DNA of 32,970 bases from Deltaproteobacteria bacterium (lineage in GTDB: Bacteria > Desulfobacterota > Desulfuromonadia > Geobacterales > DSM-12255), in the NCBI GenBank assembly GCA_021849045.1, contig JAJZTK010000033.1:1-32970 (forward strand), written 5' to 3'. The notes beneath the pieces were generated by a model. It had not been told where the DNA came from and ran no database searches. It saw only the letters and a program-made list of their open reading frames with translations. The translations under genes and the position numbers were made by a program. This document shows, piece by piece, positions 15,312 to 29,753 of the stretch (position 1 is its first letter; every line of letters begins with the position of its first letter).

Positions 15312-16166
15312 TCAGCTCCGCGGCCCGTAGGCCATCTCTTCAAGCCTCCTGACCCTCTCCTCGATAGGGGGATGGGTTGAGAAGAGCGACATGATGCCGC
15401 CGCCGGTCAGGGGATTGACGATGAACATGTGGGCAGTGGCCGGGTTGGCATCCATCGGAATCTGGTGATTAGCCATCTCCAGCTTCCGGAGCGCACCGGC
15501 CAGATAGAGTGGGTTGCCGGAGATCTCCGCCCCACCTTTGTCGGCACCGTATTCGCGCGACCGGGAAATGGCCATCTGGATCAGCATGGCGGCGAGAGGG
15601 GCGATAATGGCCATCGCCAGCATGCCGATGGCGCCGCCCCCCTCTTCGTCCCGGTCCCGGCCGCCGCCGAAGATGGCGGCCCACTGGGCCATGTGTGCCA
15701 GGTAGGTAATGGCGCCGGCTATGGTCGCGGCAATGGATGAAATGAGGATGTCCCGGTTCCGGACATGGGTAAGTTCATGGGCCATGACCCCCATCAGCTC
15801 TTCCCGCGAGAGAATCCGCATGATGCCGGTGGTGGCGGCCACTGCCGCGTGGTCCGGGTTGCGCCCCGTGGCAAAGGCGTTGGGGGTATCGGAGTCGATG
15901 ATGTAGACCCGGGGCAGCGGCATCCCGGCCTGGACGGCGAGCTGGCGCACCATGGAGTACAGGCCGGGTTGCTCTGCCTCGCTTACCTCATGGGCGCCGT
16001 ACATGGCGAGAACGATCTTGTCGGAGAACCAGTAGGAGACGAAATTCATCGCCCCAGCCATGACCAGGGCGAAGGTCATGCCGGACCTTCCGCCGATGGC
16101 TGCCCCGGCCATGACCAGGAGCCCGGTGAGAAGCGCCATGAGAACTGTTGTGCGCAGCATATTCAT
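15312..16166 (-). CDS. htpX: Membrane zinc metalloprotease HtpX
   Basis: A 284-residue inner-membrane M48 peptidase that degrades misfolded membrane proteins. Two membrane segments lie at residues about 5-40 ([18 protein letters not shown], then [16 protein letters not shown]). The zinc motif HELTH is near residue 128 and further ligand candidates follow downstream, with two more hydrophobic segments (about 143-165 and 175-195). The start is the ATG at 16166 after AGAGG; the longer frame from 16232 would run through a promoter. Usual length is about 285-295. A promoter with perfect TATAAT is visible at 16212-16240. It belongs with rpoH and clpB to the proteostasis theme. Confidence 0.93.
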
Positions 16167-16211
16167 ATTCGACCTCTGACATACTCGTATGTGGTGTAGA
16201 CTTTCATCTGA

Positions 16212-16240
16212 ATTATAGTCATTGCCCGTCAAATCCGCAA
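16212..16240 (-). promoter_or_regulatory. htpX promoter
   Basis: On the minus strand TTGCGG (16235-16240) and perfect TATAAT (16212-16217) are 17 bases apart, with the -10 about 46 bases upstream of the htpX ATG. Confidence 0.6.
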
Positions 16241-16343
16241 GGAGAAGCCAGCCTCCCGTTACCGGCCTGCGGTCAGATCGGCTTGACTTTGGATGAAGCT
16301 GAGTTAGGATTTTGGCAAAAGATTGACATAAAGGAGGTGCACC

Positions 16344-16910
16344 GTGGCAACTATTTCATGGGAAACCGATTTTCAACAGGCCCTCAGCCGGGCACAGAGC
16401 CAACAAAGAACAGTCCTTCTCGACTTCTTCAATCCCGGCTGAATCGGCTGCAAACAGATGGATGCGGTTTCGTATCCAGACGTGAAGGTGAGCAACTTCA
16501 TCATCGACAAGGTAGTTCCTCTGCGCGTACCGGCCGATGACCAGCCCTTGTCAACGGAATTCCAGGTTCACTGGACCCCTACGCTGGTCACTCTCGACAT
16601 GTACGGGAAGGAGCATTACCGGACGGTAGGCTTTCTCCCGCCGGAGGAACTCGTCCCGTCCCTGATACTGGGGATAGCCAAGGTGGACTTTGCTGCCCAG
16701 CAGTACAACGACGCCCTCATCAACCTCAACATGCTCCTGGCCGGTTACCCCACGAGCAGCGCCGCACCAGAGGCCGTCTTCCTGAAGGGAGTCTGCGGGT
16801 ACAAGAGCAGCAAGAACGCACAATACCTGAAAGAGGCGTATGAGCAGCTAGCAAGCAATTATCCTGCAAGCGAGTGGACAAAGCGGGCCAACCCGTATAG
16901 TCTCCTGTGA
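16344..16910 (+). CDS. Thioredoxin-like selenoprotein (U-x-x-C), UGA decoded as selenocysteine
   Basis: The GTG at 16344, five bases after AAGGAGGTG, opens a frame that meets TGA at 16440-16442 and continues in the same frame to TGA at 16908-16910. Read through, it is 188 residues. Residues 24-36 read [13 protein letters not shown], exactly where thioredoxins have CxxC, so Sec33 replaces the attacking cysteine. A cis-Pro candidate follows in [10 protein letters not shown]. The C-terminal part (about 110-188) looks like a TPR-type helical hairpin domain. A SECIS-type hairpin lies at 16460-16477 in the right window after UGA, and selA is in the genome. The frame stays coherent on both sides of the TGA. 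Conventional calling would start at 16458 and lose the active site. The role is likely thiol/selenol redox, partner unknown. Confidence 0.9.
16460..16477 (+). promoter_or_regulatory. SECIS element for the UGA at 16440-16442
   Basis: A 7-bp stem (16460-16466 with 16471-16477, one G-U pair) carries a GUUU loop. The loop begins 25 bases after the UGA and its first base is G, matching the bacterial SECIS rules as I recall them. Confidence 0.75.
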
Positions 16911-16944
16911 CGAGGATGCTGGACTTCGTACGATTTCCTGATGA

Positions 16945-16969
16945 GGGGGCAGAAAGTGCCCCCTTTTTT
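16945..16969 (+). terminator. Terminator after the selenoprotein gene
   Basis: A perfect 7-bp GC stem (16945-16951 with 16957-16963), five-base loop, followed by six T. It lies 35 bases past the selenoprotein stop and before cls, so the two are probably separate transcripts. Confidence 0.9.
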
Positions 16970-16998: not shown

Positions 16999-18429
16999 GT
17001 GGATAATTTCCTGACAGGTCTGTTTCTGGTTGCAGTTACCGGACTGTCAATCTTTTCGGCAGGCCATGCCCTTCTCTCTAAGCGAGACCCGCGTTCCGCT
17101 CTCGGCTGGATTGTCACCTGCATTACTATCCCGCTCATCGGGCCATTTCTGTACTGGTGCATGGGGGTCAACTGGATCCGGCGCACTGCCCAGCAATGGC
17201 AGGAGAGCGGCCGTTTTCTCGCCGAAGCCAATGCACTGCCCCATCGCACCGACAATCCCAGAGAAGCATTTCCCCACCGCTATCCGTGGCTGGCCGAACT
17301 CTGCACGCTGGCCGACCAGGTGGTGAGCTCGCGCCTCTGTCCCGGTAGCGGCCTTACCCCTCTGATAAACGGCGAACAGGCCTACCCCGCCATGCTGGAA
17401 GCCATCGAGCAGGCGCAGGACTCCATTCATCTCTGTACCTACATCTTTGACGGCGACGAAACCGGACGCCGTTTCTGTGGAGCCCTGGCAAATGCTGCCG
17501 GGCGGGGCGTAACCGTTAGAGTGCTCATCGACGGCCTCGGCGAAAAGTATTCCTGGCCGCGCGCCCGGAAACTGCTGAAAGGTTCCCCGGTACAACTGGA
17601 ACGTTTTCTGCCACTCCGCCAAGGCGGCTATGTGAACCTGAGAAACCACCGGAAGGTCCTGGTCGTGGATGGAAAGATCGGGTTTTCCGGCGGCATGAAC
17701 ATCAGCGACCGTCACCTGGCTGACAGGTCACATCGGGGATCACCGGTCAGGGATGTTCACTTTCTGGTGGAAGGACCAGTGGTTGCCGATCTTCAGAGGG
17801 TTTTCCTGGAGGACTGGTTCTTTGTTACCGGCGACAACATAACAGATCAACAATACTTTCCGGCACTGCCCCGAAGCGGCGATGCCTTGGTCCGGGCCAT
17901 CGGCGATGGTCCGGACAAGGAGTTCCGCAAGCTCCACTGGATCATCATGGGAGCACTTTCATGCGCTCGGCAGCGCATCGTGATTATGACTCCATACTTT
18001 ATCCCCGACCGTTCCCTGGTCACGGCCATTATCACGGCAGCGCTGCGCGGAGTGGAAGTAACGTTGATTTTGCCGGGGGAAAACAACCTTCCCCCGGTAC
18101 ATTGGGCGAGCCGCTCCTATCTGTGGGAGTTTCTCCAGCATGGCATCCGGGTCTGGTATCAGCCGCCGCCGTTTGTCCACACCAAACTTTTCCTGGTGGA
18201 TGGTGTTTACGGGCTGGTCGGTTCGGCCAATCTGGACCCGCGGAGCCTGCGCCTCAACTTCGAGCTGAACCTGGAAGTCTTTGACCGGGGAGTCGTGGAG
18301 GAGTTGGAGAAGTATTGTACCGAGGCCTTAGCGGCGTCCCGGGAGGTAAGTCTGGCGGAAATGGATGGCCGGCCTCTTCCCGAAAGGGTTCGGGACAGTC
18401 TGGCCAAACTATTTTCGCCGTATCTATGA
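16999..18429 (+). CDS. cls: Cardiolipin synthase
   Basis: A 476-residue inner-membrane enzyme of the phospholipase D superfamily that joins two phosphatidylglycerols to make cardiolipin. Two N-terminal membrane segments lie at about 4-24 and 35-55. Both HKD active-site motifs are seen: NHRKVLVVDGKIGFSGG (about residue 216) and VHTKLFLVDGVYGLVGSANLD (about 394), each with the H-K-D order. ClsA-type layout and length are normal. The start is a GTG at 16999 after GGGGAGGGGG. A bidirectional terminator at 18453-18494 follows. I see no tandem paralogue. Confidence 0.94.
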   Translation: MDNFLTGLFLVAVTGLSIFSAGHALLSKRDPRSALGWIVTCITIPLIGPFLYWCMGVNWIRRTAQQWQESGRFLAEANALPHRTDNPREAFPHRYPWLAELCTLADQVVSSRLCPGSGLTPLINGEQAYPAMLEAIEQAQDSIHLCTYIFDGDETGRRFCGALANAAGRGVTVRVLIDGLGEKYSWPRARKLLKGSPVQLERFLPLRQGGYVNLRNHRKVLVVDGKIGFSGGMNISDRHLADRSHRGSPVRDVHFLVEGPVVADLQRVFLEDWFFVTGDNITDQQYFPALPRSGDALVRAIGDGPDKEFRKLHWIIMGALSCARQRIVIMTPYFIPDRSLVTAIITAALRGVEVTLILPGENNLPPVHWASRSYLWEFLQHGIRVWYQPPPFVHTKLFLVDGVYGLVGSANLDPRSLRLNFELNLEVFDRGVVEELEKYCTEALAASREVSLAEMDGRPLPERVRDSLAKLFSPYL

Positions 18430-18513: not shown

Positions 18514-20568
18514 TTACTGACGATGGCAACGGTTGCATTCGGTATTGTTGTACCAGCGGTAAGGCGTACCCCAGACAACAACCTTTTCTCTGAAGTGACA
18601 GGCGATGTTGGAACAGGTCTTGGTTGCCGCAGTATAGGATGAGCTCAGAGGCTTAAAAGTCACCTGTCCATAGAAGGAAGACGAATAGGTGATCCTCCGG
18701 TCCTTGTCAAAGGCAACGTCGACCTTGCCGTTGACGTGCCTGCCGAAATTGGTGATCGGCACGGCGCTGTACTGGGTGAAGACCGTGGTTTTATTGTTAA
18801 AAATCGTCTTGTTGTACGAGATCGCGTTCAGCGCTTTGACCGTGTCGTTGTGACAGGTCGTGCAGCTCAGTCCCGGCCTGTATCCCATATTATAGGTGTG
18901 GAGGTTCTCTCCGCCACCGGCATCGATCCAGGAATGGCTGTTGCCTGCGCCGCCGTCGTTACCTGCAGAGGCGTAGCTTCTGGGCGGATTCTCGTGGCAA
19001 CCGGTACAGCCAAGGCTGGGTCCACCCCAGGTTACTGTCTTGTACATCCGCGTCTCAACAAGGTTAGCCGGCCGGTAGGATGAGTAACTGGTATAGGGGG
19101 GCACCCCGCCGGGAGTAGTCCAGCTGTTGTAACTGTGGCAGTAAACATTGTTGCAGGTGCCGTTGTAATAAGGGTAACCGCGGCCGTCGGACAGCCTGGC
19201 GCCAACCCGCGTATAGACGGCGCTTGCATTGTCCGGCCTGGCCTTGATGGAGCCTGCCGGAGCACCGGCGTTGTACAGTTCCACTTCCACTATGCCGTTC
19301 CGGTGTTTTGTCCGGTCAATGGGGTGACAGTTGCCGCAGTTGAACAGATAGCCGGTGGCGTTGGCCGTTGCTGTGCTGGTGCTGCCGTAGACCGCCTGGC
19401 TGGCGGTTCCGCTGAAGTGTTTCAGGTGGGACGGTGTATTCGGAGGTGACTCGTGGCAACCGTTGCAGTCCTTGTCAGGGTTGGCGCCCCAGTCACGGGA
19501 GCCGGTACGGGTGGCATGGCAGACGACGTTGGTGCAGGAGCCGCCGGTTGTCTTGAATGTATAGCTGAAGACGAGACCGGCACCGGGGACGACGTCGTAG
19601 ACACCGTTCGCATGCTTGGTCTGATCGCTGATGGTTAAGCCATCGGTAGTAGTGGCGTTGTGGCAGGTGTCGCAGCTCTGGGAATGGGGATAGCCGTGAC
19701 TGTTGGCCTTGGGTGCGCCGCTGATGTAACCGGGCGGATAGCCATGACAGGCATCGCAGGCGGCGACGGTGCCCCACGCGGGAGAGGTGAAGGCGTTCAA
19801 CTGGCCGGTGGCGACCCTGGTGCCATCACTGTGGCAGTAGAACGTGCTGCAGGTGCCAAAGAGATTAACCTGGCTCGGCAGGTAGTCATTCACCGGACCG
19901 CTATACGTCCCGGCCTGGCTGTCCGAGGTGTGACGCGGCTTGACGATCAGGGGACGTCCGACACTTGTGGCATGCTCGAAGCTGGTATGGCTGGGACCGT
20001 GACATGCCTGGCAGTTGGCAGCGCCGGGATAGTACAGGTCATGCTTGGCGTGGCTTCCCGCAGCACCGGTCAGTCCTCCCGACGGTGGCGCACCATGGCA
20101 GACCGCGCAACCACCTGGATAAACGAGCGGAGCAGCTCCCCAGATCGGGGTCACCTGCTCAAAGTGGCAATTGACATTGGTGCAGGTCCCCAGAAGGGGG
20201 GTAGGTGTCTGCATGAATGCCGACGTGCTGTTACGATAGCGGGCCGTGAGCCGGGAATTATTGATGTTGGCAGCCAGCTTGATCTTGCCGTCACGGTGGC
20301 TGCTGGTGTATTTGTCGCTGCCGGGATGGCAGCGGACACAGCCATTGAAGGTGTCCGCAGGGGAAAGATGGGTACGGTGATTCCCCTGAAAACCGCCAGT
20401 GGTGATATTTCGGTAGGGAGCATCGACTGGCCGGTAATCAGGGGGAACTTTACTGCCGTGACATTCGTAGCAAGCGATTGTGGCGCTGGCGGTTCCTGCC
20501 CCAAACAGCAAAATGACGGGGAGAACTAAGGCAAAACACTGCTTTTGCACGGTACGGGTGGTACGCAT
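18514..20568 (-). CDS. Multiheme c-type cytochrome, 16 heme motifs (CxxCH/CxxxxCH type)
   Basis: A 684-residue exported cytochrome with a Sec signal peptide (MRTTRTVQKQ start, cleavage after ASA near residue 29). It holds 16 heme-binding motifs: eleven CxxCH and five CxxxxCH (for example CTNVNCH, CSTFYCH, CNNVYCH). They run strictly in the order CxxCH, CxxCH, CxxxxCH, five times, plus a final CxxCH, with a conserved Trp-Gly between each CxxxxCH and the following CxxCH. This matches the Geobacter-type CxxxxCH/CxxCH domain cytochromes thought to work in the periplasm or outer surface in electron transfer. The ATG at 20568 follows AGGAGGTAG. A Fur-box-like site lies just upstream. Redox partners are unknown. 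Confidence 0.93.
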   Translation of the reverse strand: MRTTRTVQKQCFALVLPVILLFGAGTASATIACYECHGSKVPPDYRPVDAPYRNITTGGFQGNHRTHLSPADTFNGCVRCHPGSDKYTSSHRDGKIKLAANINNSRLTARYRNSTSAFMQTPTPLLGTCTNVNCHFEQVTPIWGAAPLVYPGGCAVCHGAPPSGGLTGAAGSHAKHDLYYPGAANCQACHGPSHTSFEHATSVGRPLIVKPRHTSDSQAGTYSGPVNDYLPSQVNLFGTCSTFYCHSDGTRVATGQLNAFTSPAWGTVAACDACHGYPPGYISGAPKANSHGYPHSQSCDTCHNATTTDGLTISDQTKHANGVYDVVPGAGLVFSYTFKTTGGSCTNVVCHATRTGSRDWGANPDKDCNGCHESPPNTPSHLKHFSGTASQAVYGSTSTATANATGYLFNCGNCHPIDRTKHRNGIVEVELYNAGAPAGSIKARPDNASAVYTRVGARLSDGRGYPYYNGTCNNVYCHSYNSWTTPGGVPPYTSYSSYRPANLVETRMYKTVTWGGPSLGCTGCHENPPRSYASAGNDGGAGNSHSWIDAGGGENLHTYNMGYRPGLSCTTCHNDTVKALNAISYNKTIFNNKTTVFTQYSAVPITNFGRHVNGKVDVAFDKDRRITYSSSFYGQVTFKPLSSSYTAATKTCSNIACHFREKVVVWGTPYRWYNNTECNRCHRQ

Positions 20569-22632: not shown

Positions 22633-23340
22633 ATGAGAAGAGTTACTGAAAAGCACCTCACCCTGAGAGAAAAAATCCTGGAGTCCATCAGGGAGGCTAT
22701 CATCAAAGGAACCCTCAAGCCGGGGGAGAAAGTAGCCGAGCCCGAACTGGCGGAACGTTTCGGTATCAGCCGCACCCCGATCCGGGAGGCATTTCGTCAG
22801 TTGGAATCCGAAGGGTTCCTGGTGGTGATCCCGCGCAAGGGGGCAGTGGTAGTTTCGTTCTCGCCAAAGGAAATCGAAGAGTTTTACGCCATCAAGAGCA
22901 TTCTGGAAGGGTATGCGGCCCGTAGGGCATGCGAAAACCTGAGCGACAAGGAAATCGACAAACTCAAGGCCATCAACGACAAACTCCGGCAACTGGCCAA
23001 CGAGGACGACATAAAGCATTTCTTCAAGATCCACAACGAATTCCACGAGCTGTTCATAAAGGCAGCGGACAACGAAAAACTCCACGATCTCATATCGAGC
23101 CTGCTGGGCAAATTCCAGCGACTCCGCCTCACTTCGCTCAGCCTGCCCGGGCGCATGGCCGTCTCGGTGCAGGAGCATGACAAGATCATCGAAGCGTTCC
23201 GCGACCGCGATGCCGAACAGGCCGAGCAACTGGTCCGCAAGAATGCCGAATACGGCGGCAAGGTTCTGATGCACGGCAACGAGGAAAGACCCGTTGTCAA
23301 CGTTGCAGAGCAACTGGCCTCCCTGCAGATGGACCTCTAG
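22633..23340 (+). CDS. GntR-family transcriptional regulator, FadR (FCD) type
   Basis: A 235-residue repressor. The N-terminal winged helix (about 10-75) shows ILESIREAIIKGTLKPGEKV and RFGISRTPIREAFRQLESEG, the GntR signature. The C-terminal FCD effector domain is helical with the Asp/His ligand pattern: EFYAIKSILEGYAAR, HNEFHELFI and SVQEHDKIIEAFRDRD. FCD regulators usually sense small carboxylates with a bound metal. It is preceded by a TTGACA promoter with a palindrome and followed after 13 bases by selA, so it probably controls selA. The ligand is unknown. Ribosome-binding site GAGGT before the ATG at 22633. Confidence 0.92.
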   Translation: MRRVTEKHLTLREKILESIREAIIKGTLKPGEKVAEPELAERFGISRTPIREAFRQLESEGFLVVIPRKGAVVVSFSPKEIEEFYAIKSILEGYAARRACENLSDKEIDKLKAINDKLRQLANEDDIKHFFKIHNEFHELFIKAADNEKLHDLISSLLGKFQRLRLTSLSLPGRMAVSVQEHDKIIEAFRDRDAEQAEQLVRKNAEYGGKVLMHGNEERPVVNVAEQLASLQMDL

Positions 23341-23353
23341 ACCGGGAGGCCAC

Positions 23354-24748
23354 GTGTCCCAGCTGTTTCGTGCCATCCCCAAGGTTGACCGACTCCTCCT
23401 GCTGCCGCCCGTTGCCAGGCTTTTGTCAGTACACCCGCGCCCGGTCGTTCTCCTGGCAATCCGTACCGTGCTCTCCGCACTCAGAGCCGAGGCACAAAAC
23501 GGCACACTCATCCGGGACGCGTTGACCGACACCGCTCTATCGGCACGGATCGAGCGGGAACTCTCCCTGCAGACCGCTTCACACCTCCGCCGGGTCGTCA
23601 ACGGCACCGGCATCGTCCTCCACACCAATCTCGGCCGCTCACCGCTCCCACCGAGCGTCAAAAGCCAACTGAACGAAATCGGCTTCGGCTACTCCAACCT
23701 GGAGATGGATCTGGCGACCGGCTCGCGTGGGACCCGCTACAGCCATGTGGAAGAGCTTCTGTGCGAGCTGACCGGTGCCGAAGCGGCGCTGGTGGTGAAC
23801 AACAATGCCGCTGCCGTCCTGCTGGCTCTCTCCTCAATCGCAGCCGGCCGCGAGGCCATTGTCTCCCGTGGGGAATTGGTGGAGATCGGCGGGGCATTCC
23901 GTATCCCGGATGTCATGGCTCAGAGCGGGGTGCGGTTGCGGGAGGTGGGGACCACCAACCGGACCCACCTGAAGGATTACCGGTTGGCCGTAACCGAACA
24001 GACCGGGTTGCTGTTGAAGGTTCACTGCAGCAACTTCGCCATCGTCGGCTTCACCGCCGAGGTGACGGCCACGGAGTTGGCAACGCTTGGCCGGGAAGTC
24101 GGCATACCGACCATGGTCGATGCCGGCAGCGGCAACCTGATCGATCTAAAGCCGCTCATCGGCTGCGACGAGACAACGGTCCAGGAGTATGTCCGGGCAG
24201 GAATGGATGTGGTCACCTTCAGCGGCGACAAGCTGCTGGGTGGGCCGCAAACCGGCATCATCGTAGGGAAACGGGCGTTTATCGACCCGATGAAAAAGCA
24301 CCCGCTCTTACGGGCGCTCAGGGTCGACAAGCTCACCCTGGCAGCCCTTGAAGGAACCCTGCGTCTCTACCGCGACGAACGGCAGGCCATTGCCGAAATC
24401 CCGACGCTCAGGATGCTCACGCTAACGGGAAAAACGCTGTCTGACCGGGCCAGATCGATAACCGGCCGACTGCGGCGCCGCTTGCCGAAGACCATCAGCC
24501 TTGCCGTAGTCAAAGGAACGTCACAGGCCGGCGGCGGTTCGCTGCCGCTGCTCCAGCTTCCCACCGCCCTCATCAGTGTTGCGGTCGAACGCCTTTCCGC
24601 TCAGGAGATCGAAGAACGGCTGCGCGACTGCCCGGTCCCGGTCATCGGCCGCATCCACAGGGATTCCTTTCTCCTGGATCTCCGGACCATCCTGGACGAT
24701 GACCTGCCGTACCTGATCGAGGGGCTGCAAACGCTGTCAAAAGATTGA
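23354..24748 (+). CDS. selA: L-seryl-tRNA(Sec) selenium transferase
   Basis: A 464-residue PLP enzyme converting Ser-tRNA(Sec) to Sec-tRNA(Sec) with selenophosphate, so the organism makes selenocysteine. E. coli SelA is 463 residues. Motifs include VVNGTGIVLHTNLGRSPL, AALVVNNNAAAVLLALS, and the PLP lysine in TFSGDKLLGGPQ (about residue 293). The start is the GTG at 23354, six bases after GGGAGG; the longer frame from 23294 overlaps the regulator. It is 13 bases after the GntR regulator in one operon. selB, selD and tRNA-Sec are not in the window. Confidence 0.96.
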   Translation: MSQLFRAIPKVDRLLLLPPVARLLSVHPRPVVLLAIRTVLSALRAEAQNGTLIRDALTDTALSARIERELSLQTASHLRRVVNGTGIVLHTNLGRSPLPPSVKSQLNEIGFGYSNLEMDLATGSRGTRYSHVEELLCELTGAEAALVVNNNAAAVLLALSSIAAGREAIVSRGELVEIGGAFRIPDVMAQSGVRLREVGTTNRTHLKDYRLAVTEQTGLLLKVHCSNFAIVGFTAEVTATELATLGREVGIPTMVDAGSGNLIDLKPLIGCDETTVQEYVRAGMDVVTFSGDKLLGGPQTGIIVGKRAFIDPMKKHPLLRALRVDKLTLAALEGTLRLYRDERQAIAEIPTLRMLTLTGKTLSDRARSITGRLRRRLPKTISLAVVKGTSQAGGGSLPLLQLPTALISVAVERLSAQEIEERLRDCPVPVIGRIHRDSFLLDLRTILDDDLPYLIEGLQTLSKD

Positions 24749-24995: not shown

Positions 24996-27900
24996 ATGCA
25001 AACGACCCTGTCAAAGTTCCTGTCACGGCTGTTCCCGCCAGCAGCAACCCTGGTAGCGCTGCTTTTCTGCCTCCCAACCGACTCCCACGCCATCTTCAAC
25101 AACTGGAGCAGCAGCGGCCCGGCCGGGGCCGTTGTGAAATCATTGGCCATAGACCCGGCAACACCGACGACCATCTACGCGGGAACCGCTAATGCCGGCG
25201 TTTACAAAAGCACGAACGGCGGCTCCACCTGGAACAGTGCAAACTCCGGCCTGCCGGGCAATGCTGCGATCAATGCACTTCGGCTTGCCGGCAGCTCCCT
25301 CTATGCCGGCAGCCAGGGAAACGGCCTCTTTAAGAGCAGTGGCGGAGCAAGCTGGAGTACCGTCAACGGCGGCTGGGCGGCCACGGCAAACATCTCCGCC
25401 GTGGTCGGCAATGGCACCGACATCTATGTCGCCATCAACGGCGGCGGCGTTTACAAGGGGGCCGGTGGCACGACCTGGGTCTCCTTGAACGCCACCGGCC
25501 TGACCAGCGGCAATATTCTTTCCCTTGCCGTGGTCCCGACCTCGCCGGCAACCCTCTATGCCGGCAGCAACGGCTCAGGCGCCTTCCGGAGCACCGATGA
25601 CGGCGCCACTTGGGCTTCCCTAAACACCGGGCTTCCGGGAAGCAGCACCATCACCGCCCTTGCAGTGGACAGTTCGGCGACTCCGTTCATCTATGCGGGC
25701 ACCGACCTGGGAAAGGTCTACCGGATCGCCAACAACTCCTCCACCTGGAGCGAAACCACGACCCAGCCCAGCTCCGGTGTCGCCATCAGTGGTATCGTCA
25801 CCAAGGGAACTGAAATCTACGTCATGACCGCCGGCAAGGGGCTCTTTCACAGCACTGACGGCGGTGCCACCTGGTCCCCGCTGAACAGCACGCTTCCCAA
25901 TACGACAGTGAATGCCCTGGCGCTCGACCCCATCAGCACCTTCAACCTCTACGCGGGAACCGGCGGTGGCATCTTCAAATCGACCAACAGCGGTATAACC
26001 TGGGGCGACAGCAACAGCGGGCTTTTACAGGCCGATATACGGGCATTTGCCATCAATCCGACGACCCAATCCCTTGTGTACGCCGGTTCGGCAGGCGGGG
26101 GAGTTTTCAAGAGCAGTAACGGCGGCGCTGCCTGGTTGCCGGTCAATACGGGACTGACCAACACCTTCGTGAACGCACTGGCCATTGACTCCGGAACACC
26201 GTCGACGCTCTATGCCGCAACCGGCGGCGGCATATTCAAGACCATCAACAGCGGTACCAGCTGGACCGCGGCCACGACGCAGCCGACGACTCTCGACGTG
26301 CGTGCCTTGGTCATCGATCCGGGCAATCCTGCCACGCTCTATGCCGGCACTGCCGGCGGCGGCGTCTTCCGTTCGATCAACAGCGGCGACGCCTGGGCCG
26401 CATACAATACCGGCCTGACGGATCTGAACGTGGTCGCACTGGCCATCAGCGCCAGCGACCTCTTTGCCGCCACCAGCGGCAGCGGCGTCTTCCACTGGGG
26501 GGGCACCGCCTGGGCCGCCGTCAATAGCGGCTTGACCAGCAGCATTATGAATGCTCTCGCCATCGACTCCGCAACACCGACCACCCTTTTCGCCGGCACC
26601 AACACAGCCGGTGTATTCAAGACCGTCAACAGCGCCACTACCTGGAACGCCGCCAACAGCGGCATCTCCGGCCTTTCAATCAAATCGTTCGCCATCAGCT
26701 CCACGACACCGGTTTTCGTCACCGCCGGCACCAACGGTGGCGGGGTCTTTTTCACCACCAACGGCGGAACGAGCTGGACCGCCATGAATACCGGGCTCCC
26801 CGACCTGGTGGTCAATGCCCTGGCCGCCAACACGGCCACCACCAAAAAGGTCTACGCCGGCTCGGCAAACTCGGGCATCTACTCCCTCAATGTCAGCCAG
26901 ATCTCGACGGTCACCCCTGCCGGACCAACCCCGGCCAGCGCGGTGGATTTTGGCAAGACCAATATCGGCGACACGAACGGCATCGACTTCACCCTGGGAA
27001 ATTCCGGCACCGTGGCGCTCCAGCTCTCCTCGCCCACCATTGCCGGCGTCGACAGCACCCTGTTTACCATAGCCAACGCCACCACGGGGAGCCCATGTGG
27101 CAGCTTTCCTCTGACCATCGCCGCCGGCGGAAGCTGCACCATCAAGGTAAACTTCGCCCCGTTGTCCGTCGCCACCACAAAGAGTGCCTCACTAATTGTC
27201 GGTTCCGATGCACCGAACCAGCCGATTACCGTCTACCTGAAGGGGGGCGCCGGGCCAGCTCCCCAGGCGATCATCACCGCACCTTTGGGAGGTACGGTCA
27301 GAAACCCGTATCCGGTCGCCGGGACCGCGGTCGACAACAGCGGTTGGGGTCTGGCAAAAGTGGAGGTCTCATTTGACAGCGGCACCACCTGGACCCCTGC
27401 GACCATCACACCCGCAGGGGCTCCGAACTGGAACTGGAGCTACTCCTGGACCACCGGCAGCAACGGGACGTTCGGCATCAGGGCACGGGCAACGGACAAC
27501 AACGGCTTTGTCCAGACCAACTTTACCGGCCTGACCAAGACCGTCACCATCGACAATACCCCACCGGTGACCACCATATCGGCCAAACCGCCTGCCCCGG
27601 ACAAACTCAAGAGCGGGAGTTTCAGCTTTGCGGCCAGCAAGGGTGGCTCTACCTTCGAGTGCCGGATCGACTCAGCGGCATTCACTTCATGCACCTCTCC
27701 CTATGCGTATGGCGGTCTCACCGATGGTGCCCACACCTTCAACGTGCAGGCGTACGACGGCATCCCCCCGGCGCCCGGAAACAAGGAGACCACGCCGCAA
27801 AACTACACCTGGACCGTGGATACGGTCCCGCCCACCACTACCATCTCCGGCAAACCGGCCGCATTCACCCAGTCGAACATGGCCACGCTCGTCTTTGCCG

Positions 27901-29753
27901 CCAACAAACCCTCAACCTACTCCTGCACGTTTGACGGCGGGGCGGCCGCCCCCTGTTCGAGCCCTTACGGCAAAGGCCCGTTGGCGGAAGGAAGCCACTC
28001 CTTCACGGTCCAGGCCATCGACCAGGCGGGCAATCAGGAGATAACCCCAACCTCGTATACCTGGATCGTGGACACGATCAAACCGACTTCGACCATCGCT
28101 GCAATGCCGGCCCAGCTCACCGGAGCGACCTACTCCTTTACCGGCACGGCCAGCGATGGCGGCTCAGGGGTCAGCCTGGTGGAGGTCTCTTTCGGTGGGA
28201 GCAACTGGTACCCGGCAACCGACACCGCTGTCGGCCCGGCCCTCCCCTGGTCGAGCTGGAACTACCTCTGGACCCTGCCGATAAACGGCACCTACACGCT
28301 GCAGGTCCGCTCGACGGATAAGGCCGGAAATCAACAACAGACGCCGGCAAGCGCCAACTTCAACGTTGCCAACCCCCTGCCCACGCTGGCCATCACCGCC
28401 CCGGGCAACAACGCATTAGTCGGCAGTGCCTCCACACGGGTCATTAACGGAACAGCTGCGCCCAATTCCGGTGGTCTCCCGCTGCAGAAGGTCCAGGTGA
28501 CCATTTTCCCGACAACAAACCCGCCGGGAACGCTCTCCTGGACGAATGCCATCGGCGCCGCAACCTGGAGCTACAACTGGACACTGCCCACAGACGGGCT
28601 CTATACCGTCCAGGCGCAGGCCCTGGACAGCGCAGGGAATCCTTTTGCCGTCGCCAGCAACAACGTGACAGTGGACGTCACACCGCCAACGTCGACCATC
28701 GCGCCCGCCAACAACTATCAGCGGGGCAACCGTATCGCCCTCACCGGAACGGCGGACGACAACCTCACCGGCGTCAGGCAGGTGGACATCATCGTAACCG
28801 ACAACTCAAACGCCACGACCACGACACCGGCCGCCTACAACTCCGTTACCAAGTCCTGGAGCTTCACCAGCGGCATCCTGACCGACGGCTCCTACCGCAT
28901 TCAGTCCCGCGCCACCGACAACGCAGGCAATCAGCAAGGCATCCCGGCCAACGTGACCATAACTCTGGACAACATGCCGCCCGTCACGACCCTGACCGGA
29001 AAGCCTCCCTCTCTCACCAACTCTCCGGCCCCGACGTTCACCTTTGCGGCAAACGAGACGGCCACCTATGCCTGCACCCTGGACGGCGCAGCCAGCTCCT
29101 GCACCAGCCCAAAGGGCTACACCGGGTTGACAACCGGCTCCCATACCTTCTCGGTGCAGGCAACCGACCTTGCCGGCAACATCGAGCCGACCCCTGCCAC
29201 GTACACCTGGTTCGTCGACCTGGTTCCCCCGGTCGTTACCGCTGTTACCCCGCCCGACGGCAGCAAACGGATCAGCGTCACGGGGAGCCCGATTACGGTA
29301 AAATTCAGCAAGGACCTGGACCGGGCAACGGTCACTGCCGCCACCCTCACCCTCGCCGACACCATCACCGGCAATACGGCGGTCGGCACTGTCAGCTACG
29401 ATGCACCGACAAGGACCGTCATGTTCACCCAGACGGGAAAATTGAGTTACACCACCTCTTACAGAGCAACGATCAATGGCATGGCAGACCTGGCCGGCAA
29501 CACACTGGTGCCATTCAGTTGGGCGTTCAGCACCGACCCTGACGGAGATTTCAACCTGGATGGCCGGGTCGACATAGCCGACGCCCTCGAATGTCTCAAA
29601 GTGGCAGTCGGCCGCCAGACCCCGACGGCAGCCCAGCTGTTGCACGGCGACGTCGGACCGTTGCAGGGCGGCAAGCCGCAGCCGGACGGAAAGATCGATA
29701 TCAGCGACGCGGTTGTCATTCTTGAGAAAGTGGTGGGTATTTCCACCTGGTAA
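24996..29753 (+). CDS. Large secreted protein: beta-propeller repeats, Ig-like domains, C-terminal dockerin-like module
   Basis: A 1585-residue exported protein with a signal peptide (about 1-32, cleavage near SHA). Residues about 60-635 hold 14 repeats of roughly 42 residues, each with YAGT-x-GGGVFKS and TTW-type strands, like photosystem-assembly/BNR-type propeller blades; two seven-blade propellers would fit. Then a choice-of-anchor-D (ASPM/SPD-2/Hydin-like) domain (about 644-752), six or seven Ig-like modules (about 756-1408), several with paired Cys and GxHTFxVxAxD, an SbsA-type Ig domain (about 1410-1515), and a dockerin-like C-terminus with two Ca-binding loops, DGDFNLDGRVDIADA and PDGKIDISDAVVI. 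It is probably surface-located and sigma-54-controlled. The cohesin-like partner is next door. Enzyme activity is not evident. Confidence 0.85.
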   Translation: MQTTLSKFLSRLFPPAATLVALLFCLPTDSHAIFNNWSSSGPAGAVVKSLAIDPATPTTIYAGTANAGVYKSTNGGSTWNSANSGLPGNAAINALRLAGSSLYAGSQGNGLFKSSGGASWSTVNGGWAATANISAVVGNGTDIYVAINGGGVYKGAGGTTWVSLNATGLTSGNILSLAVVPTSPATLYAGSNGSGAFRSTDDGATWASLNTGLPGSSTITALAVDSSATPFIYAGTDLGKVYRIANNSSTWSETTTQPSSGVAISGIVTKGTEIYVMTAGKGLFHSTDGGATWSPLNSTLPNTTVNALALDPISTFNLYAGTGGGIFKSTNSGITWGDSNSGLLQADIRAFAINPTTQSLVYAGSAGGGVFKSSNGGAAWLPVNTGLTNTFVNALAIDSGTPSTLYAATGGGIFKTINSGTSWTAATTQPTTLDVRALVIDPGNPATLYAGTAGGGVFRSINSGDAWAAYNTGLTDLNVVALAISASDLFAATSGSGVFHWGGTAWAAVNSGLTSSIMNALAIDSATPTTLFAGTNTAGVFKTVNSATTWNAANSGISGLSIKSFAISSTTPVFVTAGTNGGGVFFTTNGGTSWTAMNTGLPDLVVNALAANTATTKKVYAGSANSGIYSLNVSQISTVTPAGPTPASAVDFGKTNIGDTNGIDFTLGNSGTVALQLSSPTIAGVDSTLFTIANATTGSPCGSFPLTIAAGGSCTIKVNFAPLSVATTKSASLIVGSDAPNQPITVYLKGGAGPAPQAIITAPLGGTVRNPYPVAGTAVDNSGWGLAKVEVSFDSGTTWTPATITPAGAPNWNWSYSWTTGSNGTFGIRARATDNNGFVQTNFTGLTKTVTIDNTPPVTTISAKPPAPDKLKSGSFSFAASKGGSTFECRIDSAAFTSCTSPYAYGGLTDGAHTFNVQAYDGIPPAPGNKETTPQNYTWTVDTVPPTTTISGKPAAFTQSNMATLVFAANKPSTYSCTFDGGAAAPCSSPYGKGPLAEGSHSFTVQAIDQAGNQEITPTSYTWIVDTIKPTSTIAAMPAQLTGATYSFTGTASDGGSGVSLVEVSFGGSNWYPATDTAVGPALPWSSWNYLWTLPINGTYTLQVRSTDKAGNQQQTPASANFNVANPLPTLAITAPGNNALVGSASTRVINGTAAPNSGGLPLQKVQVTIFPTTNPPGTLSWTNAIGAATWSYNWTLPTDGLYTVQAQALDSAGNPFAVASNNVTVDVTPPTSTIAPANNYQRGNRIALTGTADDNLTGVRQVDIIVTDNSNATTTTPAAYNSVTKSWSFTSGILTDGSYRIQSRATDNAGNQQGIPANVTITLDNMPPVTTLTGKPPSLTNSPAPTFTFAANETATYACTLDGAASSCTSPKGYTGLTTGSHTFSVQATDLAGNIEPTPATYTWFVDLVPPVVTAVTPPDGSKRISVTGSPITVKFSKDLDRATVTAATLTLADTITGNTAVGTVSYDAPTRTVMFTQTGKLSYTTSYRATINGMADLAGNTLVPFSWAFSTDPDGDFNLDGRVDIADALECLKVAVGRQTPTAAQLLHGDVGPLQGGKPQPDGKIDISDAVVILEKVVGISTW

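Follow-up and report, generated by a model that had tools for sequence, protein, structure and literature searches.

Evidence for a UGA-encoded selenocysteine in a thioredoxin-like protein with a TPR-like C-terminal region from a Geobacterales bacterium

In the genome of a deltaproteobacterium of the order Geobacterales, a gene-length reading frame is interrupted by a single TGA, and the question that this locus raises is whether the codon ends translation or is decoded as selenocysteine (Sec). The stretch of DNA analysed, hereafter the window, comprises 32,970 nucleotides (contig JAJZTK010000033.1 of assembly GCA_021849045.1), and its features are collected in Table 1. The frame 16344-16910 contains the TGA at 16440-16442 as its single internal stop and translates as ...LDFFNPG-U-IGCKQM..., with the TGA in the place of the first active-site residue (UIGC) of a thioredoxin-like domain. 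A reading made earlier from the letters of the sequence (the sequence-only reading) had placed the codon precisely here; its coordinates are right, and the same codon is TGA in 105 genes. It had also proposed a Shine-Dalgarno-type site 5' of the GTG start, which is present (Table 1), and had predicted that a gene caller would start at 16458. Indeed, the ORF that results mechanically when the TGA is avoided (16458-16910) starts at ATG 16458, comprises 150 amino acids and lacks the UxxC active-site motif. As no NCBIfam release 20 model scores above its cut-off for the window protein, ordinary pipelines probably cut the gene at this ATG.

Table 1. Features of the seleno-thioredoxin-TPR locus and of selA in the window
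Feature	Coordinates	Strand	Remarks
Seleno-thioredoxin-TPR gene (predicted)	16344..16910	+	188 residues, GTG start, stop TGA 16908-16910
Ribosome-binding site AAGGAGGTG	16331..16339	+	4 nt 5' of GTG 16344; direct from sequence
UGA codon for predicted selenocysteine, residue 33	16440..16442	+	TGA here in 105 of 136 distinct homologous genes, Cys codon in 29
Active-site motif U-I-G-C, residues 33-36	16440..16451	+	
Bacterial SECIS-like hairpin	16459..16478	+	stem 16460-16466/16471-16477, outer U-A pair 16459-16478, loop GUUU
Thioredoxin-like domain, about residues 4-104	16353..16655	+	PF13098 37.5 bits, cut-off 27; 49 of 49 aligned members match
TPR-like helical C-terminal region, about residues 106-183	16659..16892	+	window member below Pfam TPR cut-offs
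Intrinsic-terminator-like hairpin with T tail, between gene and cls	16943..16965	+	1 found vs shuffle mean 0.9: weak alone
selA, selenocysteine synthase	23294..24748	+	TIGR00474 613 bits, cut-off 268

Homologues were sought at two levels. A search of 141 genomes of the order with the read-through protein as the query yielded 50 long matches with E-values no higher than 1.1e-36; they are spread over 49 genomes and include a frameshifted copy. Their codon for residue 33 is TGA in 30 cases, TGC in 13 and TGT in seven. At the level of the phylum, a profile of 49 aligned rows (A1) was run against 395 genomes, up to eight candidates per genome being scored. The 91 matches listed with E-values of up to 7.1e-37 come from 84 genomes; a single internal stop codon, in each case TGA, interrupts 80 of them, and the other 11 are uninterrupted. 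Four of these matches duplicate genes of the order set, and one TGA match (L103), for which a second domain had been picked, was left out. The resulting 136 distinct genes (50 from the order and 86 from outside) carry TGA at this position in 105 cases (30 and 75, respectively), TGC in 22, TGT in seven, and ACG and GAG in one each; the frameshifted copy (L064) is counted among the 105, and it was omitted from alignments A1 and A2 and from the tree described below. In relatives that have neither the motif nor a TGA, the site was assigned via its position in the profile.

The sequence-only reading had staked its case on Sec or Cys at residue 33 of the homologues, as opposed to unrelated residues, and on conservation upstream of the TGA. 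The first holds for 134 of the 136 distinct genes, two relatives having neither Sec nor Cys, and in the TGA genes that were fetched the matched stretch contains no other TGA, and this one coincides with the active-site codon. The second is equally evident from the 49 aligned rows, in which residues 4, 6, 14, 28 and 29 are invariant or nearly so. All rows of A1 share W6, F28, T78-P79, D85, G88, E90, R93 and G96 in the redox domain as well as E143, A144, G149, V150, L162, W178 and P184 in the C-terminal part. Viral contigs scanned with profile A1 gave 19 stretches with a pattern match, none of which encodes a relative, and a tblastn search of plasmids gave no match.

Bacterial SECIS elements are hairpins located just 3' of the UGA with a G within the first two bases of the loop. 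As claimed from the sequence, a 7-bp hairpin with a G-first loop begins at the 18th base after the UGA. A predicted hairpin with a G among the first two loop bases and a loop start 16-37 nt after the codon is a property of all 105 TGA genes, compared with nine of the 31 non-TGA genes, and at least six of the seven pairs form in the register of the window hairpin in 85 of the former and in one of the latter. We then compared folding energies with those of synonymous recodings that keep each gene's own codon usage. The 45-nt stretch after the UGA of the window folds at -14.0 kcal/mol versus a mean of -8.1 for 200 recodings (z -2.5); 3.5% of the recodings fold as low, and the window hairpin taken by itself reaches only that level. 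Across the family, the mean z was -1.61 in the 105 TGA genes (95 below 0 and 68 below -1), as opposed to -0.37 in the 31 non-TGA genes; nine control stretches, each covering 102-105 TGA genes, gave means of -0.10 to -0.45. Furthermore, stem pairs change on both sides: pair 19-34 is G-C in 86 genes and A-T in 11, pair 20-33 is A-T in 60 and G-C in 19, and pair 21-32 is T-A in 80 and A-T in four, although these changes are not independent events because the genes are related. The three controls, i.e., Sec versus non-Sec genes, recoding and both-sided pair changes, set the hairpin apart from constraint on the protein.

Within the order, covariation is modest. Among 28 distinct TGA rows, eight break two or three pairs of the stem in the window register and three more break one; the covariation score was equalled by four of 500 shuffles, and a register slid by -2 still leaves 74% of the cells paired and scores higher (0.282 versus 0.172). 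The argument for the hairpin is therefore carried by the wider gene set and the recoding control. One subgroup of eight rows appears to use a shifted stem. Within the Sec rows, the 14 codons that begin directly after the UGA rank eighth of 181 stretches for synonymous conservation, the stretches at the top overlapping them; in the Cys rows they rank 32nd of 181. Conservation exceeds expectation by 0.21 in these codons of the Sec rows and by 0.05 elsewhere in the gene; the corresponding values for the Cys rows, which are close relatives, are 0.16 and 0.13. No SECIS family of Rfam was detected in the window at the gathering threshold, nor between 16400 and 16560 at E up to 1.

The machinery for Sec incorporation was the remaining point on which the sequence-only reading could have failed, absence of selB, selD and tRNA-Sec having been named as counter-evidence. 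All are present above cut-off in the window's genome: tRNA-Sec with 74.7 bits (cut-off 47), selB with 383 bits (cut-off 242) and selD, itself with one TGA, with 361 bits (cut-off 125). The selA gene that had been noticed within the window was recognized by its NCBIfam model (Table 1), so that tRNA-Sec, SelA, SelB and SelD are all encoded in the genome. The same genome contains a second selD-like region (L021, L022; G000 contig C3:3489-4422) with one TGA and with two frames split at a short run of Ns. Taken together, conservation and the genome's machinery argue for decoding as Sec, and we consider it almost certain that the gene in the window is a real selenoprotein gene. The selenoprotein called from raw sequence is thus supported, and its family, which occurs phylum-wide and mostly in the Sec form, is liable to have its genes shortened by ordinary gene finders.

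Cys-containing members are informative about the history of the family. A tree was calculated for 133 genes with residue 33 masked and without an outgroup (the partial genes L154 and L156 and the frameshifted L064 were left out), and five changes among Sec, Cys and other residues suffice on it, compared with a mean of 28.7 after shuffling. Twenty Cys genes from Geobacteraceae (L042-L061; genera g10 and g12, the latter including Geomonas) form one clade (100/100), which in a quick tree is nested among Sec genes from two families, f3 and f1, the latter being that of the window. A tRNA-Sec above cut-off is present in all 20 genomes of this clade, and in G030, which is among them, a TGA thioredoxin persists. 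This suggests that Sec was replaced by Cys without loss of the Sec trait and that the hairpin was lost in this clade; the direction of the change follows from parsimony on a tree without outgroup. Outside the order, tRNA-Sec was above cut-off in five of nine genomes with non-TGA versions. Sec-to-Cys substitutions are described as rare in bacteria and as documented mainly for FdhA and SelD (PMC13188914, a review from 2026). A nested Cys clade that has kept its tRNA-Sec offers natural pairs of orthologues with which to address why Sec is retained in some bacteria and abandoned in others. In the distant family f63 (L152, L155, L157 and L159-L164), six of nine members have CxxS, one has CxxC, and in two the first position is occupied by a residue other than Sec or Cys; with its motif degraded, this family may have partly lost its redox function.

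The domain make-up bears on what the protein does. Profiles assign the first part to the thioredoxin-like proteins: in addition to PF13098 (Table 1), PF13899 and PF00085 are just passed by the redox part of the window protein (PF00085 with 24.3 bits), and PF13899, like PF13098, matches all 49 aligned members. Among chains of known structure, a putative disulfide isomerase (2kuc) and C-terminal domains of DsbD come nearest in sequence. An AlphaFold model based on a four-row alignment is unreliable for the thioredoxin part (pLDDT below 50 for residues 1-98), and the assignment of the thioredoxin fold therefore rests on the profile matches. Residues 101-188 are modelled as a helical array with block means of 65-92 pLDDT. 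The TPR-like character that the sequence-only reading had ascribed to the C-terminal region was borne out by TPR_6 matches in 34 of 49 members at E 0.01, by this helical model and by its best Foldseek matches, the TPR domains of YbgF (2xev, E 1.3e-3); at E 0.001, Foldseek returned nothing for the model. The nearest TPRs to this part are those of YbgF and BamD. Reading of residues 1-28 revealed no hydrophobic leader, which points to a cytosolic location.

The window gene lies between htpX (15312-16232, minus strand) and the cardiolipin synthase gene cls (16999-18429, plus strand). When 136 loci with flanks of unequal length (50 in the order and 86 outside) were compared, neighbours clustered as cardiolipin synthase (38 loci), a protein that we take to be RsmB-like (26 loci) and HtpX (13 loci), all within the order. 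Outside the order, the largest neighbour cluster, a response-regulator-like gene in mixed places and on mixed strands, comprised 14 of 86 loci, and no neighbour gene recurs phylum-wide across the 136 loci. The window gene looks free-standing. Further downstream, the window encodes a multihaem cytochrome (18514-20568, minus strand) with the Geobacter CxxxxCH...CXXCH motif (PF09698, PF14522) and a 1585-residue protein (24996-29753, plus strand) with a sortilin/BNR-like repeat part, several bacterial Ig-like domains and, by eye, a look-alike of a dockerin-type calcium-binding repeat at its end.

A second subgroup (L119, L121, L124, L125, L130, L138, L139, L143 and L144 of family f33, as well as L071-L073) has a motif like [FY]DG[U/C]xGC..M and not NPGUIGC. 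In seven of the nine f33 loci the gene lies on the same strand, 24-129 bp 3' of a methylmalonyl-CoA mutase gene; in seven it lies 5' of a biotin-ligase gene (gaps of 24-145 bp in six and 407 bp in one), and in seven a biotin carboxylase gene is found further upstream. Pantothenate kinase and EF-G are encoded downstream; the neighbour genes were named on one locus, L119. In family f33 the arrangement may point to a redox function in the vicinity of CoA enzymes that depend on biotin and B12, and it says nothing direct on the window gene.

As judged from its sequence features, the window gene probably encodes a thiol-disulfide reductase that depends on Sec and docks through its TPR part, the selenoprotein call being included in this estimate. 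The product would be a cytosolic selenoprotein of 188 residues, in which UGA 16440-16442 would be translated as Sec by SelB and tRNA-Sec, guided by the downstream hairpin. The predicted thioredoxin-like domain has the motif WTPT with the cis-Pro typical of such domains, and its U-x-x-C site would most likely reduce disulfides or other oxidised sulfur groups, with Sec attacking and the downstream Cys resolving. A thioredoxin-type reductase may recharge the site, and the TPR-like region would most likely dock the redox domain on a client or partner. The specific partner that had been suggested for this region stays a guess because no neighbour gene recurs across the phylum.

A chaperedoxin-like role is an unlikely alternative to such a reductase. 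By analogy with E. coli CnoX (YbbN), the TPR part would hold oxidised or unfolding clients and the Sec site would form mixed selenenylsulfides with them. CnoX, a thioredoxin-TPR holdase according to PMC8129009, and the window protein have the order thioredoxin-then-TPR in common, and PF14561, the domain by which we presumed CnoX could be sought, is matched in the control genomes of E. coli and Caulobacter and unmatched in the window's genome, so that the niche may be free. Against this, the TPR-like sequence extends over only about 80 residues and is nearest to the YbgF/BamD type, and PF14561 is unmatched in all 49 members at E 0.01. Moreover, the cysteine that E. coli CnoX employs lies outside its SxxC motif (PMC8129009), whereas the window protein has an intact redox motif. 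It is doubtful, and in our view even a little more so, that the mostly Sec-containing thioredoxin-TPR family as a whole represents a selenium-dependent chaperedoxin of CnoX-less anaerobes that, in one Geobacteraceae clade, exchanged Sec for Cys and gave up the SECIS hairpin while the Sec machinery was kept. If true, it would provide a natural experiment on the benefit of Sec in a thiol oxidoreductase.

With the Sec-dependent reductase as the preferred reading, the possibility that the UGA is an ordinary stop and that the real product is a truncated TPR protein translated from ATG 16458 appears very remote. The mechanical ORF 16458-16910 does exist, but conservation in the family extends to residues encoded 5' of the UGA and to both positions of the active site, Cys replaces Sec in 29 genes, no Shine-Dalgarno-like sequence was seen on reading the bases just before 16458, and a hairpin constrained chiefly in TGA genes would be left unexplained. 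A pseudogene or a sequencing error at the first active-site codon is refuted by the recurrence of the same TGA in 105 distinct genes of many families, including a 98%-identical gene in the separate assembly of Geobacter argillaceus (L001), and is practically out of the question.

How does the protein relate to known systems? The best NCBIfam matches of its thioredoxin part, in 49 of 49 members, are the C-terminal (gamma) domain of DsbD and the selenoprotein TsoB. Membership in either was rejected, the scores being far below the cut-offs (38.9 of 330 bits for DsbD and 39.7 of 805 bits for TsoB); 188 residues leave no room for the membrane part of DsbD, and no export signal was seen in the window protein when it was compared with the two. 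From CnoX/YbbN, with which it shares the sequence of domains, it differs in its type of TPR, its shorter length and the Sec in its motif. The Sec-containing thioredoxin (PF00085, UxxC) of Geobacter and others likewise has a UxxC site and an in-frame TGA. This thioredoxin is the product of a separate gene that scores 66.6-87.7 bits with PF00085, in contrast to the far lower PF00085 score of the window protein, which has an extra C-terminal region; it was found in five of six genomes searched, the window's own being the exception. A TGA thioredoxin listed in PMC1914089, GSU3446, may correspond to either of the two genes.

The closest counterpart is a family that has been predicted before under the name 'thiol:disulfide interchange protein'. 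The window protein combines a PF13098 domain with UxxC, the two features under which that family is listed. In genome G050, which we take to be G. uraniireducens, the gene studied here is the only TGA-bearing PF13098 match among the matches listed, and one separate TGA thioredoxin is present. One TGA gene of each sort is also what the table of PMC1794560 (2006) gives for G. uraniireducens: the 'thiol:disulfide interchange protein' is predicted there as a selenoprotein of G. metallireducens, G. uraniireducens and Syntrophus aciditrophicus, and a 'thioredoxin' selenoprotein likewise for G. metallireducens and G. uraniireducens; in that table the former family is not given for G. sulfurreducens. 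The family is characterized by PF13098 and UxxC, with WP_011366075.1 as representative, in PMC13188914, and it appears as 'Trx-like 2 (Thiol disulfide interchange protein)' with UxxC in PMC2398784. In the entries of PMC1794560 and PMC13188914 that describe it, a TPR-like C-terminus, a phylum-wide spread or a sequence is not mentioned, and no thioredoxin-TPR selenoprotein appeared in the titles and opening lines of abstracts of the literature searched or in a term search of one review. UxxC, PF13098 and occurrence in Geobacter are what the two have in common, and from these listings and the gene counts in G050 we infer that the window gene very probably belongs to this family. Beyond the sequence-only reading, then, the gene is a member of a family that is spread across the phylum and that is very probably already listed among the predicted selenoprotein families.
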